Source of the DNA: Pseudomonas oryzihabitans | GTDB lineage: Bacteria > Pseudomonadota > Gammaproteobacteria > Pseudomonadales > Pseudomonadaceae | Direction of reading: 5' to 3' | DNA: 64,000 bases | Assembly (NCBI RefSeq): GCF_024652905.1 | Contig: NZ_CP102428.1 | Location: 4,572,001-4,636,000, forward strand | Shown: one piece after another, positions 39,244-48,682 of the stretch | How the letters are laid out: the number at the start of each line of letters is the position of its first letter | Position numbering within the stretch: position 1 is the stretch's first letter | Program-made: the position numbers and the translations under genes | The notes under the pieces: generated by a model | Seen by the model: only the letters and a program-made list of their open reading frames with translations | Told to the model about the DNA's origin: nothing | Databases searched by the model: none

Positions 39244-39433
39244 GAGGCGTCCTTGCGAGGTGATCACCAGGGTATCGGCATCCGGCCGGCTGGTTGGAGC
39301 GGTTCTAAGGGGCAGAGCTTAGACCAGGATCGCGCGAGGGATGGTGATAATGGTCAGATAATTTTCGCCGGTAATCTGGCTACGTCCCTTTCATGAGCGC
39401 TCTTCGCGTCTTGGGAAAGCCTAAGAGACCGCC

Positions 39434-39541
39434 AGAAACAACAAAGCCCGCGCGATGGCGGGCTTTGCTGAGGTTCACGCGACGGTGAACGGGAGATGGC
39501 GCACTCGGCGGGATTCGAACCCACGACCCCTGCCTTCGGAG
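39434..39541. repeat. Left direct repeat of the tRNA-Arg island (attL-like)
   Basis: This 108-bp segment matches 46753-46859 with about one substitution and one single-base indel. It contains a copy of the tRNA terminator hairpin (39443-39466) and the last 45 bases of the tRNA-Arg gene (39497-39541). Identity stops at 39541, inside the anticodon arm, so this is a partial tRNA copy and marks the far end of the insertion. Confidence 0.88.
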
Positions 39542-39571
39542 TCCTAAAAGTCAATGTTTAGAAACAACACG

Positions 39572-39641
39572 TTAGCGGAAATTAGCTTTCTGATCAAAGA
39601 GTTAAGTTAGCTTGCGTTAGCTCGATTTCGCCGTGATTAGC
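39572..39641 (+). repeat. Five phased TTAGC repeats beside the left end of the island
   Basis: TTAGC occurs at 39572, 39582, 39607, 39617 and 39637, all in the same orientation with spacings of 10, 25, 10 and 20 bp. They lie about 30-100 bp from the left tRNA repeat, where integrase arm-type or excisionase sites would be found. A TGTGGCA direct repeat follows at about 39653-39668. Confidence 0.5.
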
Positions 39642-39938
39642 GGGCCGAGTGTGGCAAATTTGTGGCATAGCTTGCCAGCGGATGTCTTCGAGACGTTTGG
39701 CTCATCACTAGGAGTGTCTAGCGCCTCGCCAACTGAGTCGATAGGGATTTCCACGGAAATCCAACATTTTCTAGCTCGCGGACTATCTGGGCGTAGCTAC
39801 CCTATCCTGCGCGGAGACACGCTTTTCTATCGCCCGGCCAGTGGTAGCGCTAGGAAGCGAGAAGGCACGGGTAAGGTCTAATCGTTTGATTCATCCAAGC
39901 TAAACTAGCGTTTTTGCTAGCAATTCTTGGAGCTCCTC

Positions 39939-41915
39939 GTGAACACGGAAAACCATTCTCAGACGGCCGCTTTTCTCTGGTCGATTGCCGACCTGCTACG
40001 TGGTGACTTCAAGCAGTCCCAGTACGGCCGCATCATCCTGCCGTTCACGCTGCTGCGGCGGATGGAATGCGTACTGGCGCCAACCAAGGAAAATGTTATC
40101 AAGCAGACCTTCACACAGGAGGGGCGTCCCGACGCCGTGCGCGAGATGATCCTGCTGCGCACAGCCGGCCAGCAATTCTTTAATGCGTCGCCGCTCACCC
40201 TCGCCACGCTGTCCGACACCCAGACCGCCGCCGACTTGATGAGCTACGTGCAGGCCTTCAGCAAAGATGCTCGCGAGATCTTCGAACACTTCCACTTTGA
40301 AGATTTTGTTCAGCAGCTGGCTAGTGCCAACCTGCTGTACCAGGTGGTGCAGCGTTTCGCTGCCACTGATCTGAGCCCCGAGCGCATTAGCAACTTCGGC
40401 ATGGGCATCATTTTCGAAGAGCTGATCCGTAAATTCGCTGAAAGCTCCAACGAAACCGCCGGAGAGCACTTCACCCCGCGCGATATCGTGCACCTCACTA
40501 CCTCACTGGTGATCACCGGGCAGGATGGCAAGCTTGCGCCCAACAGCATCGTCACCATTTACGACCCGACCGCGGGCACCGGCGGTTTCCTCTCCGAAGG
40601 TGACGAATACATACAGTCCATTAGCGATAAGGTCAGCGTGTCTCTGCACGGCCAAGAGCTCAACCCTGAGTCCTACGCCATCTGCAAAGCGGACATGCTG
40701 ATCAAGGGCCAAGACGTCACTAGCATCAAGCTCGGCAACACCTTGTCCAACGACCAGCTTGCTGACAAGCGCTTTGACTTCATGCTCAGTAACCCGCCAT
40801 TCGGCGTGGAGTGGAAGAAGGTTCAGAAGCAGATCACTGACGAATATACGGAGAAGGGTTTCGACGGCCGCTTCGGGCCAGGTCTGCCACGCGTGTCCGA
40901 TGGCTCGCTGTTGTTCCTCCTGCACCTGGTCAGCAAGATGCGTGACCCGCGCGAAGGTGGCTCGCGCATCGGCATCATCCTCAACGGCTCGCCGCTGTTT
41001 ACCGGCGGCGCGGGTTCTGGTGAGTCGGAGATTCGCCGCTACCTACTGCAGAACGATCTGGTCGAAGCCATCGTCGCGCTGCCCACCGACATGTTCTACA
41101 ACACCGGCATCGCCACCTATGTATGGATACTCAGCAACCACAAGGCTGCTGCGCGCCAGGGCAAGGTGCAGTTGATCGACGGCAGCCAGCACTACACCAA
41201 AATGCGTAAGTCGCTGGGCAGCAAGCGTCAGTACATCACCGAAGATCACATCAGCGAGCTGGTGCGCCTGTATGGCAGCTTCGAGCAAACAGCACAGAGC
41301 AAAATCTTCCCTAGTGAAGCCTTTGGCTACCGGCGCATCACCGTCGAGCGCCCGCTGCGCCTTAACTTCCAGACCAGTGCTGAGCGCATCGCTAAGGTGC
41401 TGGAAGAAAAAGCCCTGCAAAAACTAGACAGCTCCGCCCAGCAGCAGCTGCTGGCTGCCTTGCAAACGATCAACGCAGGCGTGCTGCACCGCAACCGCGA
41501 GCAGTTCAGCAAGTTGCTGAAAAAGGCCCTTACCGCGCACAGCGTCAGCCTCAGCGCACCTGAGTTGAAAGCCCTGATGGGTGCCCTGAGTGAGCGCGAC
41601 CCTGAGGCGGATATCTGCATGACCAAAGGCCAGCCGGAAGCCGATTCTGGCCTGCGTGACAACGAGAACGTGCCGCTGGGCGAGTCGGTGTACGACTATT
41701 TCCAGCGTGAGGTCATCCCTCATGTGCCGGATGCCTGGATCGACGGGAGCAAGACCGACGCCTTGGATGGCGAGGTCGGTATTGTCGGCTTCGAGGTCCC
41801 TTTTAACCGCCACTTCTACGTGTTTCAGCCACCGCGCCCGCTGGCCACGATTGATAGTGACCTGAAGGCCTGCACCGATCGGATCAAGCAGATGATTGAT
41901 GAGTTGTCGGCATGA
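39939..41915 (+). CDS. hsdM: Type I restriction-modification system DNA methyltransferase HsdM
   Basis: A 658-residue N6-adenine methyltransferase. The N-terminal helical HsdM domain begins [21 protein letters not shown]. The SAM-binding motif is DPTAGTGGF near residue 209, and the catalytic motif NPPF is near residue 285 ([11 protein letters not shown]). A C-terminal coiled-coil tail contacts HsdS. With HsdS it methylates the recognition sequence. GTG 39939 is chosen because GGAG sits 8 bases upstream. The TTG at 39927 is also in frame. The stop overlaps the hsdS start in ATGA. A short ACTAGC/GCTAG dyad lies just upstream of the gene. Confidence 0.95.
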
Positions 41916-43312
41916 AAAATCTGTCGGGAGCAAATTTGAACAATGGCGCAGCCGTTGGCCCCCAGGGCGAGGGCAGGGAAAACTCCAGTAGTTTCCCACG
42001 CTATCTGGCGTACAAAGACTCGGGTGCTGAGTGGCTCGGGGAAGTACCGGAGCATTGGGGGGTAAGTCCATTGAAGTGGCTGGCTGAGCAGGTCACTGAT
42101 AAAGCGACAACATCAAATTTTCAGGTTGGGCTAGAGAACATTGAAGGATGGACTGGGTGTTTTATCGAAACTGATACGGAGTTTGCCGGTGACGGAATAG
42201 CATTTCGACAAAAAGACATTCTGTTTGGGAAGCTGAGGCCTTACCTGGCAAAGGTTTGGTTGGCAGATAAGTCGGGACAGGCTGTCGGTGATTTTTTCGT
42301 GCTCCGCCCACGTGCGATTAATAGTGAGTTTATTCATAAGTACATTTTGATGCCAACTGTGATTGAGGGCCTTAATGCATCAACCATTGGTGCCAAAATG
42401 CCGCGCGTCGGCTGGGAGGACATGGCAGCCCTTGCAGTGACAATCCCGCCACATAAAGAACAAACCCAAATCGCCCGCTTCCTCGACCACGAAACCGCCC
42501 GCATCGACGCGCTGATCGAAGAGCAGCAGCGCCTGATCGAACTGCTCAAGGAAAAGCGCAAGGTCGTGATCTCCCACGCCGTCACCAAAGGGCTAGAGCC
42601 GACGGTGCCGATGAAGGACTCCGGCGTGGAGTGGCTAGGCGAGGTGCCGGCGCATTGGGAGGTCCGGAAACTTTCAACGATCACTAATAAGATTACGAAT
42701 GGTTTTGTCGGGCCTACTAGAGACATTTTGGTCGACGAAGGTATTCGCTACTTACAGTCCCTTCATATCAAGGGAAATAGAATTAAATTTGATGTGCCGT
42801 ACTACGTCCGCGAGGCGTGGAGTCTTGACCACAAGAAGTCGATTCTTGAGTCGGGTGACGTTCTAATTGTTCAGACTGGGGATATTGGGCAAGTGGCGGT
42901 CGTAACCGATGAGTTTGCTGGTTGTAACTGCCATGCGCTTATTGTCTGCTCTCCAGTAAGGGATTCGATTAGTGGTGAATGGCTTTCTTGGGTTCTCAAT
43001 ACGAATTATGGTCGCCAGAGTTTGCTTTCTATTCAGACGGGTGCACTTCACCCTCATCTTAACTGTGGAAATGTGAAGGATCTCTATATCCCTGTACCAC
43101 CACTTGCCGAGCAGGAAGATATTTGCAAGTTCGTCGAAGGTAGTTTGGGTTGCTTCGATTCTTTGATAAGTGAGTCTGAGTCTGCCGGGCTGCTGCTTCG
43201 TGAGCGCCGCTCCGCCCTAATCTCCGCCGCTGTCACCGGCAAAATCGACGTACGTGGCTGGCAGCCACCGACCCACGCGCAATCCCCTGAATTAGCCCAA
43301 GAGGTGGTGTAA
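41912..43312 (+). CDS. hsdS: Type I restriction-modification specificity subunit HsdS
   Basis: A 466-residue specificity subunit with two target-recognition domains in tandem. A near-identical lead DSGxEWLGEVPxHWxV occurs at about residue 36 and again near 236. The coding copies (42011 and 42611) are exactly 600 bp apart. The central conserved helix [20 protein letters not shown] sits near residue 190 and a C-terminal counterpart [20 protein letters not shown] is at the end. The two variable TRDs are clearly A+T-richer than the conserved parts, as expected for domains exchanged between strains. Specificity cannot be read from sequence. It overlaps hsdM by 4 bp and hsdR by 1 bp. Confidence 0.94.
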
Positions 43313-46300
43313 TGGCGGACAGCAAGGAAGCTCAGTTTCAATTCGACATTATCGATGCCCTGGCCGCCCAAGGCTGGCTAGTCGGCACCGCCAGTGGCTA
43401 TGACCAGCGCACGGCGCTGTATACCGAAGATGTACTGGGTTACTTCAAGGTGGCTTGGCCTGAACGTTGGGACAAGTTCGCTAAGGCCAATCCGAATAAC
43501 CCAGACGATGTACTGGTACAAAAATTGGTGCGGGAGCTGGAGCAGTGCGGCACCCTGGATGTGCTGCGCCATGGCTTCAAGCTGCCAGCAGTTAAGGTTG
43601 AGCTGTGCAGCTTCCAGCCTGACCACGGCATGAACCCGGATACCCTCAAGCGCTACCAGTGCAACCGCCTGCGCGTGGTGCCGGAGGTGTCTTACTCGCC
43701 GCATTCGCGTGATGCGGGTGGCGGCGGGCAGAGCTATAACCCACGGCTGGATCTGGTGCTATTCGTCAATGGCATCCCCACCGCCACGCTGGAGCTGAAA
43801 AGCGAGTTCAAGCAGAGTGTGGAAAACGCCAAGCGTCAGTACCGCTACGACCGCCCGGTGAAAGACCCGCTGACCCGCAAGCCCGAGCCTCTGCTAACCT
43901 TTAAACGCGGGGCGCTGGTGCATTTTGCGGTGGGCCAGAACGAGGTGGCTATGACCACCAAACTGGACGGCAAGGACACCTTCTTTCTGCCGTTCAACCT
44001 TGGCAGCGCGGAAGGCGGCGCAGGCAACCCGCCGCCGCCCGACGACAGCCAGTACGCCACCGGCTACTTGTGGCATCAATTGTTCCAGCCGGATGCCTGG
44101 CTCAAGGTGCTCGGACGCTTCCTGCACCTGGACAAGAAGACCAGCGAGGGTTTTGACGGTACGCTCACCACCAAAGAGACGATGATCTTTCCACGCTACC
44201 ATCAGTGGAATGTGGTCAACCGGCTAATCGAAACCACTCACACTGAAGGACCGGGCAAGCGATATCTGATTCAGCACAGCGCAGGTTCTGGTAAGTCCAA
44301 CTCTATTGCCTGGACCGCCCACCAGCTTGCCTCTATGTACAACGATGACGGCCAACGGCTGTTCAGTTCGGTGATCGTGGTCACCGACCGCACGGTGCTG
44401 GATAGTCAGCTGCAGAACACCATCTACCAGTTCGAGCACGCTCAAGGTGTGGTGAGGCCAATTACCCGCGACGTTGGCAACCAGAGTAAGTCTGAACAAC
44501 TGGCGGAGGCGCTGGCTGAGCAGACGCGCATCATCATCGTCACCATCCAGACGTTCCCGGCGCTGTTCGACGCGCTAGAAAAGTATCCAAAGCTGGCCTC
44601 AGGGCGCTATGCGGTGATCGCTGACGAAGCGCATTCCTCGCAGACAGGCTCCTCGGCTAGCAAACTGAAACAGATCCTCGCCAGCGATGCGCTCGAAGCT
44701 GAAGAGATTAGCGCTGAAGACCTGCTCGACGCTGCCGTGCAGGCGCGCAAGCCAAACGAGCGCATCAGCTATTACGCTTTTACCGCCACGCCCAAGGCTA
44801 AAACCTTGGAGCTGTTTGGTCGGGTGCCTGACCCCACGTTGCCACCGAGTGCTAGCAATAAGCCCGAGGCGTTCCATCTGTATTCAATGCGTCAAGCCAT
44901 TGAGGAGGGCTTCATTCTCGATGTGCTGCAGAACTACACCACTTACAGTACCGCCTGGAAGATCGCCCACCCCGATGGTGAAGACGACGAGGTGGACTCG
45001 AAGAAAGCGCGCATGAAGCTGGCACGCTGGGTGCGGCTGCATCCCTACAATATTGACAAGAGAGTCGAGATCATCGTTGAGCATTTCCGCGCCAATATCC
45101 TTCATTTGCTCAACGGTCAGGCCAAAGCAATGGTAGTCACCAGCAGTCGTCAGGAGGCGGTGCGGTACCAACTGGCAGTTAAAGAGTATGTACAGCGGAT
45201 GGGGTATGCCGATGTGCATCCACTGGTGGCCTTCTCGGGTAGCGTGCTGCCTGATGACGTGATTCCAGAGGAGGTAACCGAGACTAGCAACCTGCTCAAC
45301 GCTGGCCTAAATGGCCGCGACCTAGCCAAGGCCTTCGACACTCAAGATTTCAATGTCATGATCGTTGCCAACAAGTACCAGACTGGCTTTGACCAGCCCA
45401 AGCTGTGCGCCATGTACGTTGATAAGAAGCTACAGGGCGTGGACTGCGTACAGACGCTATCGCGCCTTAATCGAACCTTCCCTGCGAAGCAGACCTTCAT
45501 CCTCGACTTTTTCAACGAGCCGCAGGACATTCTCGATGCTTTCTTGCCTTACTACACCAAGGCCGAGCTGAGCGATGTCACTGACCCGCAGATCATCTAT
45601 GACCTGCAGAAAAGACTGGATGCTGAAGGGATCTATCACTGGCAAGAGGTCGAGGCGTTTGCCCTGGCGTTCTTCGACCCGAAAGCGGCCGCTAGCAAGC
45701 TCAGCTATTACTGTCAGCCGGCGAAGGAACGCTTTGCCAAGCGTTACGCCTTCAGCGTCGAGTCGCGCCAGCAAGCACTGGATTACAAGCGTACCGCTGA
45801 GGCCAATGGCGATAGCGCCGGTTTGAAGAAAGCTGAGCATGCTCTCAGGGAGGCCGGCGAGCAGGTGGATCAGCTCGACCTCTTCCGAAAGAACCTGCAA
45901 AGCTTTGTGCGCCTGTATGAATTCCTCTCGCAAATTGTCCCGTACGAAGACCGTGAGCTAGAGCAGCTTTGTGTCTTTGCTAAGCACCTGTATCCGTTGC
46001 TTCGAGTAGATCGGCTTGAGCGGGACGATGTAGATCTAGGCGAGCTGGAGTTGACCCACTATCGGCTAAGCAAACGTGCAGAACAGATGCTTCAGCTGAG
46101 TGCTGATAACGGTGAGTACAAGCTGCAACCAGCGAGTGAGGTAGGCAGCGGCAAGCCTCACGATCCAGAAAAGAAGCGCCTATCGGAGATCGTTAAGGCG
46201 CTAAACGATATCTTCGGAGCTGAGGTGAGTGACGATGATCAACTGCACTTTTTAACCGGCATTGCAAAGCGAATTAGTCGGCAAGAAGATGTGATGGCTC

Positions 46301-46503
46301 AGGTTAACAATCACTCGACCGAGCAGGTTATGCATGGCCTTTTCCCCAAACGGGTATTGGACACGGTGCTGGACTCCATTACTGATCATGAAAAGCTCTC
46401 GTTGGAAGTTTTAGATAGTGAAAAAAAGACGAGAGCGTTCGCATTGACGATTTTGAAAATGCTGAAAACGCTTGGAGCAAGCGCTCCTGATCAGAGCTTG
46501 TAG
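43312..46503 (+). CDS. hsdR: Type I restriction endonuclease subunit HsdR
   Basis: A 1063-residue translocase-nuclease. The N-terminal PD-(D/E)xK nuclease has Asp in YNPRLDLVLFVNG and Glu-x-Lys in TATLELKSEF near residues 146-163. The SF2 motor has Walker A in HSAGSGKSNSIAW near residue 322, DEAH box DEAHSSQTGSSASKL near residue 438, TATPK in FTATPKAKT, and late motifs VANKYQTGFDQPKL and QTLSRLNRTFPAKQTFILDF. The C-terminal helical domain docks to the methylase. The frame is intact, so the system appears functional. It overlaps hsdS by one base (TAATG). Confidence 0.95.
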   Translation: MADSKEAQFQFDIIDALAAQGWLVGTASGYDQRTALYTEDVLGYFKVAWPERWDKFAKANPNNPDDVLVQKLVRELEQCGTLDVLRHGFKLPAVKVELCSFQPDHGMNPDTLKRYQCNRLRVVPEVSYSPHSRDAGGGGQSYNPRLDLVLFVNGIPTATLELKSEFKQSVENAKRQYRYDRPVKDPLTRKPEPLLTFKRGALVHFAVGQNEVAMTTKLDGKDTFFLPFNLGSAEGGAGNPPPPDDSQYATGYLWHQLFQPDAWLKVLGRFLHLDKKTSEGFDGTLTTKETMIFPRYHQWNVVNRLIETTHTEGPGKRYLIQHSAGSGKSNSIAWTAHQLASMYNDDGQRLFSSVIVVTDRTVLDSQLQNTIYQFEHAQGVVRPITRDVGNQSKSEQLAEALAEQTRIIIVTIQTFPALFDALEKYPKLASGRYAVIADEAHSSQTGSSASKLKQILASDALEAEEISAEDLLDAAVQARKPNERISYYAFTATPKAKTLELFGRVPDPTLPPSASNKPEAFHLYSMRQAIEEGFILDVLQNYTTYSTAWKIAHPDGEDDEVDSKKARMKLARWVRLHPYNIDKRVEIIVEHFRANILHLLNGQAKAMVVTSSRQEAVRYQLAVKEYVQRMGYADVHPLVAFSGSVLPDDVIPEEVTETSNLLNAGLNGRDLAKAFDTQDFNVMIVANKYQTGFDQPKLCAMYVDKKLQGVDCVQTLSRLNRTFPAKQTFILDFFNEPQDILDAFLPYYTKAELSDVTDPQIIYDLQKRLDAEGIYHWQEVEAFALAFFDPKAAASKLSYYCQPAKERFAKRYAFSVESRQQALDYKRTAEANGDSAGLKKAEHALREAGEQVDQLDLFRKNLQSFVRLYEFLSQIVPYEDRELEQLCVFAKHLYPLLRVDRLERDDVDLGELELTHYRLSKRAEQMLQLSADNGEYKLQPASEVGSGKPHDPEKKRLSEIVKALNDIFGAEVSDDDQLHFLTGIAKRISRQEDVMAQVNNHSTEQVMHGLFPKRVLDTVLDSITDHEKLSLEVLDSEKKTRAFALTILKMLKTLGASAPDQSL

Positions 46504-46752
46504 GAATAGACAGGGCTTTCTCGAGGCGACTTTAGTGGTTTGAGCTCTGCTAGGCCGCCTTGAAGCAGCTGCGAGGATTTCCTTCGTCTGCCGCAAAAGC
46601 CTGCTGCATCCTATTCTTCCTGCTCATAGGGGTTCGGTTTGTTAATCAATCGAATCCTGATGTTGAGCCGTCAGTGCTGATCGCACTCCGCCCACTTTTT
46701 CCTAAATCATGTGGCTAAGCGCGTGATGACTCGGCAGTAGGAATAGACCGCT

Positions 46753-46859
46753 AGAAACAACAAAGCCCGCTCGATGGCGGGCTTTGCTGAGGTTCACGCG
46801 ACGGTGAACGGAGATGGCGCACTCGGCGGGATTCGAACCCACGACCCCTGCCTTCGGAG
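46753..46859. repeat. Right direct repeat of the tRNA-Arg island (attR-like)
   Basis: This segment matches 39434-39541 except for one base change and a one-base deletion. It merges into the intact tRNA-Arg gene at 46815, so the functional tRNA is on this side. Confidence 0.88.
46762..46785 (-). terminator. Terminator downstream of tRNA-Arg
   Basis: AAAGCCCGC pairs with GCGGGCTTT, followed on the minus strand by a T-rich GTTGTTTC. It lies 30 bases past the tRNA 3' end, and the same hairpin is duplicated at 39443-39466. Confidence 0.75.
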
Positions 46860-46891
46860 GGCAGTACTCTATCCAGCTGAGCTACGAGTGC
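46815..46891 (-). tRNA. tRNA-Arg, anticodon CCG
   Basis: On the minus strand the 77-base gene starts GCACTCG, ends CGAGTGC-GCCA (CCA encoded) and folds into the full cloverleaf. The acceptor stem is 7 bp, the D-arm starts TAGCTCAGCTGGATAGAGTA, the anticodon arm is CTGCC-CTCCGAA-GGCAG (anticodon CCG at the middle of the loop), and the T-arm holds GGGTTCGAATCCC. It reads Arg CGG codons. It is a common integration site in Pseudomonas, and here its 3' half is duplicated at 39497-39541 on the other side of the island. Confidence 0.97.
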
Positions 46892-47233: not shown

Positions 47234-48682
47234 ATGCAGCTCAAAGACGCTTCCCTGTTTCGCCAGCAAGCCTATGTCGACGGCGCCTGGATCGACGCCG
47301 ACAGCGGTGCCACCGTCAAGGTGGACAACCCGGCCACCGGCGAGACCCTGGGCACCATCCCCAAGCTCGGCCGCGCCGAGACTAAGCGTGCCATCGACGC
47401 TGCCAACCGCGCCCTGCCGGCTTGGCGTGCGCTGACCGCCAAGGAACGCTCGGCCAAGCTGCGGCGCTGGTACGAGTTGATGATCGAGAACCAGGACGAC
47501 CTGGGCCGGCTGATGACCCTGGAGCAGGGCAAGCCGCTGGCCGAGGCCAAGGGCGAGATCGTCTACGCCGCCTCCTTCATCGAGTGGTTCGCCGAAGAAG
47601 CCAAGCGTATCTATGGCGACACCATTCCCGGCCACCAGGCCGACAAGCGCATCCTGGTGATCAAGCAGCCCATCGGTGTCACCGCCGCCATCACGCCGTG
47701 GAATTTCCCCACCGCGATGATCACCCGCAAGGCCGGTCCGGCCCTGGCCGCCGGTTGCACCATGGTGATCAAGCCCGCCAGCCAGACCCCCTATTCGGCG
47801 CTGGCGCTGGTCGAACTGGCCGAGCGCGCCGGCATTCCCAAGGGTGTGTTGAGCGTGGTCACCGGCTCCGCCGCCGAGATCGGCGCCGAGCTGACCGAAA
47901 GCCCCATCGTGCGCAAGATCTCCTTTACCGGCTCCACCGAGATCGGTGCCAAGCTGATGGAGCAGAGCGCGCCCACCATCAAGAAGCTGTCGCTGGAGCT
48001 GGGCGGCAACGCGCCCTTCATCGTTTTCGACGACGCTGACCTGGACAAGGCCGTGGAAGGCGCCATTGCCTCCAAGTACCGCAACGCCGGCCAGACCTGC
48101 GTCTGCGTCAACCGTCTCTATATCCAGGACGGCGTGTACGACGCCTTCGCCGAGAAATTCAAGGCAGCGGTGGCCAAGCTCAAGGTCGGCAACGGCCTGG
48201 AGGAGGGCGTGACCATTGGCCCGCTGATCGACGCCAAGGCCGCGGCCAAGGTCAAGGAACACATCGACGACGCCGTGAGCCAGGGCGCCAAGGTCATCGC
48301 TGGCGGCAAGGCCCACGCCAACGGTGGTAGCTATTTCGAGCCGACCATCCTCGCCGACGTGCCCAAGAGCGCCAAGGTGTCCAAGGAGGAGACCTTCGGC
48401 CCGCTGGCGCCGCTGTTCCGCTTCAAGGACGAGGCCGAGGTCATCGAGCTGGCCAACGACACCGAGTTCGGCCTGGCCTCCTACTTCTATGCCCGCGACC
48501 TGTCCCGCGTGTTCCGCGTGGCCGAGGCGCTGGAGTACGGCATGGTCGGCATCAACACCGGCCTGATCTCCAATGAGGTGGCGCCCTTCGGTGGCGTCAA
48601 GGCCTCGGGCCTGGGCCGCGAGGGCTCCAAGTACGGTATCGAGGACTACCTCGAGATCAAGTACCTCTGCCTGGGGATCTGA
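47234..48682 (+). CDS. gabD: NADP-dependent succinate-semialdehyde dehydrogenase GabD
   Basis: A 482-residue aldehyde dehydrogenase. Catalytic motifs are VTAAITPWNFPTAM (Asn), KISFTGSTEIG (cofactor loop), LSLELGGNAPFIVFDDAD (Glu) and NAGQTCVCVNRLYIQ (Cys nucleophile). The start region LFRQQAYVDGAWIDADSG and ending SKYGIEDYLEIKYLCLGI are typical for GabD. It converts succinate semialdehyde to succinate with NADP. gabT lies 222 bp downstream on the same strand, with an intergenic repeat between. Together they form the GABA shunt output. ATG 47234 follows AAGGAGA. Confidence 0.95.
   Translation: MQLKDASLFRQQAYVDGAWIDADSGATVKVDNPATGETLGTIPKLGRAETKRAIDAANRALPAWRALTAKERSAKLRRWYELMIENQDDLGRLMTLEQGKPLAEAKGEIVYAASFIEWFAEEAKRIYGDTIPGHQADKRILVIKQPIGVTAAITPWNFPTAMITRKAGPALAAGCTMVIKPASQTPYSALALVELAERAGIPKGVLSVVTGSAAEIGAELTESPIVRKISFTGSTEIGAKLMEQSAPTIKKLSLELGGNAPFIVFDDADLDKAVEGAIASKYRNAGQTCVCVNRLYIQDGVYDAFAEKFKAAVAKLKVGNGLEEGVTIGPLIDAKAAAKVKEHIDDAVSQGAKVIAGGKAHANGGSYFEPTILADVPKSAKVSKEETFGPLAPLFRFKDEAEVIELANDTEFGLASYFYARDLSRVFRVAEALEYGMVGINTGLISNEVAPFGGVKASGLGREGSKYGIEDYLEIKYLCLGI

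Follow-up and report, generated by a model that had tools for sequence, protein, structure and literature searches.

A type I restriction operon between direct repeats at tRNA-Arg(CCG)

The window, by which we mean the whole 64,000-nucleotide stretch of Pseudomonas oryzihabitans DNA analysed here (contig NZ_CP102428.1), carries a small island at a tRNA-Arg(CCG) gene in which the only recognised genes between two direct repeats are hsdM, hsdS and hsdR of a type I restriction-modification system. All three lie on the plus strand. The modification gene hsdM (39927-41915) encodes 662 amino acids when read from its first TTG, the true start possibly lying further in, and its product matches PF02384, PF12161 and the PADLOC model MTase_I PDLC03029 (940 bits). 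The specificity subunit encoded by hsdS (41912-43312) matches PF01420 over two stretches and is recognised by PADLOC, as is the restriction subunit encoded by hsdR (43312-46503), which has helicase and HSDR_N domains (PF18766, PF04851, PF22679, PF04313). hsdM and hsdS, and likewise hsdS and hsdR, overlap by a few bases, and all three frames are uninterrupted, so that the intact, overlapping type I operon claimed in a preliminary description of this DNA is borne out by open frames, Pfam and PADLOC alike. With complete hsdM, hsdS and hsdR the island resembles type I systems in general and its genes show nothing unusual; the interest lies in their setting alone. By homology, the operon is expected to behave like other type I systems, methylating the DNA of its host and cleaving incoming DNA that is unmodified.

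The left copy of the attachment (att) repeat spans 39423-39541 (119 bp) and the right copy 46742-46859 (118 bp), both assigned to the minus strand, with 115 of 118 aligned bases identical and one 1-nt gap. Each copy comprises about 45 nt of the tRNA 3' half and 73 bp downstream of it, including the terminator, and identity stops at the tRNA anticodon (CTTCGGAG). The intact tRNA-Arg(CCG), found by ARAGORN at 46815-46891 on the minus strand, is the sole tRNA in the window. The left copy is an attL core, made up of the tRNA-Arg(CCG) 3' fragment as far as the anticodon and the 73-bp terminator region, and it is continuous with the left flank as seen in congeners with an empty site. The right copy consists of a native-type downstream terminator and the tRNA 3' half, which by repeat and arm comparison replace the right arm of the island family described below. 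The island has a guanine-plus-cytosine (GC) content of 0.552, compared with a mean of 0.658 (standard deviation 0.020, minimum 0.610) for 141 overlapping 7.2-kb windows outside it. The preliminary description had given the repeats as 107-108 bp, slightly short of their full length, and was correct about the intact tRNA on one side and about the foreign composition.

Between hsdR and the right repeat lie 238 bp (46504-46741) for which no match came up among the loci compared or when 197 further genomes of the taxonomic family were searched; it is at this end that other members of the island family have their core genes, integrase and right arm. The 12-mer GTAGGAATAGAC occurs at 46500, overlapping the hsdR stop, and again at 46737, at the start of the right repeat; the pair may be a scar or a chance recurrence.

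The left junction carries the attachment arm of an island family

Immediately inside the left att copy, at 39542-39668, is an attP-type arm (TCCTAAAAGTC...) containing five TTAGC motifs, which is 80-82.5% identical to its five best counterparts over 126-132 bp. An ungapped comparison with the closest arm gives 104 of 127 identities, and the next-best position in the window gives 52 of 127. Within the arm a 20-bp arm-type site (TGTGGCAAATTTGTGGCA..., 39648-39667) recurs at the integrase end of integrase-bearing islands, with an exact second copy in eight islands.

Counterparts of this junction were sought in 398 genomes of the taxonomic family with a pattern consisting of the tRNA 3' end followed by a base foreign to the tRNA, which passes over islands whose next base is G (for example that of G035). 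The junction was present in 15 genomes, including that of the window, and in 14 of these it continues with an arm of about 127 bp that begins TCC(T/C)AAAA and is rich in TTAGC; the one junction lacking the arm (G152) looks prophage-like. An arm-pattern scan of the genome_contigs collection returned 26 records, all titled Pseudomonas bar one Stutzerimonas, and since nine of these genomes overlap the junction-search set the family stands at 31 different arm-bearing genomes, window included. The island in the window shares with this family the junction at the tRNA-Arg(CCG) anticodon and the conserved far-end attP arm (TCCTAAAAG); it has neither the integrase of about 368 amino acids beside the tRNA nor the tRNA-proximal arm (GTGTGGCAAATTTGTGGCAAAAACGACTTTCAGG). 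That it derives from the tRNA-Arg(CCG) arm family we regard as nearly certain.

Integrase and right end across the family

The family tyrosine integrase is full-length in 25 of the 31 arm-bearing genomes, truncated in two and absent from four. One family integrase of 368 amino acids (L124) was used as the query, and a match of at least 85% identity was obtained in 23 of the 26 genome_contigs genomes; G372, G333 and G144 likewise have a 368-residue integrase. The truncated forms are those of G436 (the same as G307), in which the first 34 residues are missing, and of G319 (L120:10030-10872), in which the protein is cut at the C end at about residue 280 and the right arm is kept. The search gave no match in G422, G424 or G000, and in G427 (the same as G157) it gave a single distant match of 31% on another contig. 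Nor was PF00589 found in the contiguous islands of G422 and G157 or in the two end-bearing contigs of G424, whose middle is unplaced; one weak PF00589 hit in G157 lies far outside the island. All 25 full-length integrases have a match to the tRNA-Arg 3' end within about 105 bp (read from G254 and G303 for G438 and G442, respectively). A 586-kb Pseudomonas luteola record labelled as a plasmid (L178, NZ_CP044084.1) encodes a family integrase with 93.8% identity, next to which lies another, shorter integrase gene.

In integrase-bearing islands a second arm (GTGTGGCAAATTTGTGGCAAAAACGACTTTCAGG...) precedes the tRNA, ahead of the integrase start. This tRNA-proximal arm is present in nine of the ten integrase-bearing islands aligned and absent in G307, which has the truncated integrase, in G157 and in the window. 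The similarity between left and right flanks, measured in 24 family islands (G425 and G424, which were unmeasurable, and G152 standing outside this set), exceeds 80 bp in five and stops within 19 bp in the other 19. Two of the five, the window and G307, reach 97% identity; the remaining three, G423, G426 and G144, which have a full-length integrase, show 87-91 bp at 83-86%. A long repeat is unusual, yet it is also found in islands with an integrase.

No family integrase in the island or elsewhere in the genome

As the preliminary description had stated, no recombinase gene was found between the att copies, and the window as a whole has no PF00589 match. The genome has six PF00589 matches, the nearest of them more than 100 kb away; when 1.5 kb on each side of these six loci was scanned, two had a tRNA (tRNA-Lys and tRNA-Phe) and none had tRNA-Arg. 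The family-integrase search found no family integrase in this genome; 26 of the 31 genomes searched gave matches at 85% identity or above and served as positive controls. A resident family integrase acting in trans was rejected as a candidate.

No integrase remnant was detected in 39542-39926 or 46504-46741, either in translations or by tblastn with ten family integrases. Against the two gaps these queries gave matches of 6-31 residues at E values of 0.66 or worse, all in 39542-39926, and against the window they gave nothing at E ≤ 1. An integrase pseudogene between the repeats was thus rejected by translations and tblastn; the preliminary description had named such a pseudogene, in 39542-39938, as a finding that would tell against its proposal, and that stretch consists of the arm and the hsdM leader.

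The same site in other genomes

The preliminary description had proposed comparing this tRNA-Arg locus across related genomes, and the comparison yielded empty sites in five congeners and integrase-bearing islands in other Pseudomonadaceae. An empty site, that is, a single att copy joining both flanks, is found in five of 12 congeners (G002, G003, G008, G009 and G011), the left flank aligning only partly in G002 and G011. G004, G006 and G010 likewise have no insert and differ in the near left flank; in G001, G005 and G012 the left flank is too diverged for the site to be judged.

Two further inserts were seen at the same tRNA. In the congener G007 (L087:2004-11400) about 9.4 kb occupies the site and there is no left att copy; we read this insert as a different type I restriction locus, and no PF00589 integrase was found in that stretch. 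In another genus, G035 (L088:426-7817, G035:C5) has a 7.3-kb island at tRNA-Arg(CCG) in which PADLOC recognises JetC and JetD, read here as part of a four-gene Wadjet operon; no PF00589 match was found on its contig, and its junction has no TCCTAAAAG arm.

Beyond the island, a gabD-like gene beside the tRNA (window 47244-48200) has a second copy of 96% DNA identity at G000:C1:1230084-1231040, and second 96% matches also occur in G002 and G003.

Core genes and cargo of the relatives

Integrase-bearing members read whole have variable cargo at the arm end and the core genes with the integrase at the tRNA end. The restriction cargo in the window adjoins the arm, which is the position of the variable cargo in these members. 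Comparison of the core proteins with PHROGs placed the integrase among integrase families, a 206-residue protein among replication initiators and a 101-residue protein in an excisionase/regulator family; the last has no Pfam match, and we take it to be AlpA-like.

PADLOC was run on 18 proteins from nine of the 31 islands at a cut-off of 1e-10 and gave at least one match in eight of the nine. Type I subunits were recognised in G333, G419, G423 and G426, and Gabija together with a type II methyltransferase in G254; weaker or partial matches were obtained for G162, G144 and G439. There was no match for the one protein tested from G157 (1690 residues) or for one of the five from G254 (1084 residues). 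Of 25 other islands whose sequence was read completely or for the most part, 14 have a relative of HsdM (tblastn E ≤ 1e-10, 23-40% identity), and the gene content of G421 reads as mainly metabolic. From these matches, and from the metabolic-looking cargo of G421, it follows that defence cargo in the family is frequent and not universal.

The Pseudomonas endophytica island G424, which has no integrase and whose arm and tRNA lie on different contigs, shares 18.7 kb of cargo with the integrase-bearing island of Pseudomonas sp. Choline-02u-1 (G425) in three stretches of 5.3-7.5 kb at 99.5-99.9% identity (L159, L161, L175, L176), so the same cargo exists with and without the integrase end. The right end of G424 is also 87% identical, over 3.1 kb spanning that end, to that of Pseudomonas psychrophila G422 (L160, L156), and the right end of G157 (L126) is 93.6% identical to that of G422 over 172 bp at the tRNA. 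A common right end thus unites G157, G422 and G424, three of the four islands without an integrase, and indicates that these islands are not all products of independent decay; the window does not have this end. A 373-residue protein encoded at the right end of G424 has no Pfam match.

A plasmid or phage vehicle for the island was also considered and rejected. Coverage of the island stays below 80% in all 800 matching plasmid records and reaches 74%, at 82.5% identity, in the best of them; the arm pattern has no exact match in viral_contigs; and all 393 matches among phage records are less than 60% identical to the family integrase.

Origin of the island

We consider that the island is a minimised remnant of the tRNA-Arg(CCG) island family of Pseudomonas and related genera, its integrase end having been lost in place, and give this a probability of about 0.68. 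The island has no integrase, no core genes and no right arm, and is best read as a remnant lacking these parts. Integrase loss fits best because the window keeps the arm of a family whose members mostly (25 of 31 genomes) have a full-length integrase, and itself has neither integrase nor right arm; we infer that the integrase was lost in the lineage of the window rather than never received. Of the two origins offered in the preliminary description, integrase loss is thus the better fit, and movement by an integrase acting in trans is disfavoured by the missing tRNA-proximal arm and by the lack of a family integrase in the genome.

The sequence of events may have been as follows. A family tyrosine integrase would have recombined the attP of the island with the tRNA 3' half at the anticodon loop, an integration to which the arm points, and this would have left the TCCTAAAAG arm that is observed at the left junction. 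A later recombination would then have removed, in place, everything between hsdR and the tRNA flank, namely the core genes, the integrase and the right arm. The native-type right flank could stem from an island that already had such a flank in its attP and then underwent an internal deletion, or from an illegitimate joint with empty-site DNA or a mis-excised circle. The operon that was left would be passed on as part of the chromosome and could disappear if the 118-bp repeats recombined, but excision through its own kind of integrase is probably impossible.

Several points weigh against this derivation. The native-type right flank demands an extra step, and there is no integrase remnant that would mark a deletion. 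No arm among the 31 has diverged further than that of the window (mean identity 0.79, compared with 0.85-0.93 for the others), so the island may be an old side branch, and in the genus of the window (13 genomes) the junction search found no second arm-bearing junction and hence no member with an integrase. This hsdMSR cargo was not found in any island with an integrase. The closest hsdMSR relatives, with HsdM and HsdR at 84-88% amino acid identity, are in G025 and G028, genomes with no arm-bearing junction, and the plasmid record CP113227.1 carries a relative covering 74% of the island query at 82.5% identity; the cargo accordingly has other routes. Finally, that both ends of G424 belong to one island is presumed across two contigs.

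The strongest rival, which we hold to be unlikely though by no means negligible, is that the island arrived without an integrase, a donor fragment of arm and hsdMSR having entered through a homologous end in the tRNA region and an illegitimate end, so that the lineage never had the integrase. With a right flank of native type (115 of 118 aligned bases identical to the left copy) and an abrupt joint near 46741/46742, the island looks as if one end had joined by homology and the other illegitimately, and homology-facilitated illegitimate recombination is stated, in the part of PMC3240628 drawn on here, for three naturally competent species and for Escherichia coli conjugation. The type I restriction insert of G007, located at this tRNA and lacking a left att copy, and the absence of integrase-bearing members from the genus, agree with such an arrival. 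However, a donor island of the same family is still needed, and G423, G426 and G144, with full-length integrases, also have 87-91 bp of flank similarity, albeit at 83-86% as against 97%; a long repeat by itself is therefore no sign of arrival without an integrase.

A broader view, which we think improbable, is that the tRNA-Arg(CCG) site serves as a docking point at which defence systems persist as arm-plus-cargo units without an integrase, with homologous recombination involving integrase-bearing islands renewing these units or carrying them from one species to another; the defence pool would then circulate in part without an integrase of its own. It fits in outline, given the cargo identity of G424 and G425, the common right end of three islands and the unrelated Wadjet-type island of G035.

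It is very unlikely that the island is a working non-autonomous cassette mobilised in trans by a same-family integrase supplied by another island or by phage-borne DNA. The left arm with its five TTAGC motifs and the core are retained; three other arm-bearing islands have no PF00589 match in their end-bearing contigs, bar the weak G157 hit outside the island; and the common right end of G157, G422 and G424 suggests that integrase-less forms are not all independent. Against this, the window has neither that common right end nor the right arm seen in members with an integrase, its left arm has diverged further than any other, its genome has no family integrase, and the same hsdMSR cargo was not found at the site elsewhere.

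There is practically no chance that the repeats arose by coincidence or as unrelated duplications, the other outcome that the preliminary description had named as telling against it, since a 118-bp repeat at 97% identity is bounded by the tRNA anticodon and a family-specific arm and empty sites exist in five congeners.

Relation to described islands

Zhao et al. 2025 (PMC12595487), in the sections drawn on here, describe the Pseudomonas tmRNA islands I23, I44 and I55, which have a tyrosine integrase, often alpA, and phage-defence cargo, and which sit at the tmRNA 3' end with direct repeats. The same sections show a jumbo phage transferring one tmRNA island and note that many such islands use tRNA genes. 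In the features compared, the integrase-bearing relatives of the island in the window agree with these elements in integrase, excisionase/regulator PHROG match and defence cargo, so the island is a reduced form of a kind of tyrosine-integrase defence island that has already been described. It differs from the tmRNA islands, so far as those sections characterise them, in its target, which is tRNA-Arg(CCG) and not tmRNA, in its repeat and arm, and in having no integrase or other core gene; the tmRNA site with a 14-bp repeat and the tyrosine integrase of the I55 type are both absent from the window.

A cis-mobilizable element (CIME), as defined in the part of PMC5704250 used here, has no integration and transfer genes and keeps both attL and attR. 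The island agrees with that definition in keeping attL and in having no integration or transfer genes among its recognised genes; it departs from it in attR, of which there is the core and no family arm, and no parent integrative and conjugative or integrative and mobilizable element is known. Literature searches, at the level of titles and the openings of abstracts, named no tRNA-Arg(CCG) island of this type in Pseudomonas; among the papers returned, the portions considered deal with PAPI, PAGI and LESGI hotspots of P. aeruginosa (PMC12629846) and ssrA islands of Dehalococcoides (PMC3146451).

Implications

The TCCTAAAAG-type arm allows the parent family of an island without an integrase to be recognised by sequence alone, an aid in tracing "orphan" defence genes to their vehicles. 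Were the minimal form to move in trans after all, it would point to a small and easily overlooked class of defence cassette. As a remnant, the island suggests a way in which mobile defence islands turn into immunity fixed in the chromosome, by shedding the integrase end and retaining the defence genes with a single fossil arm.

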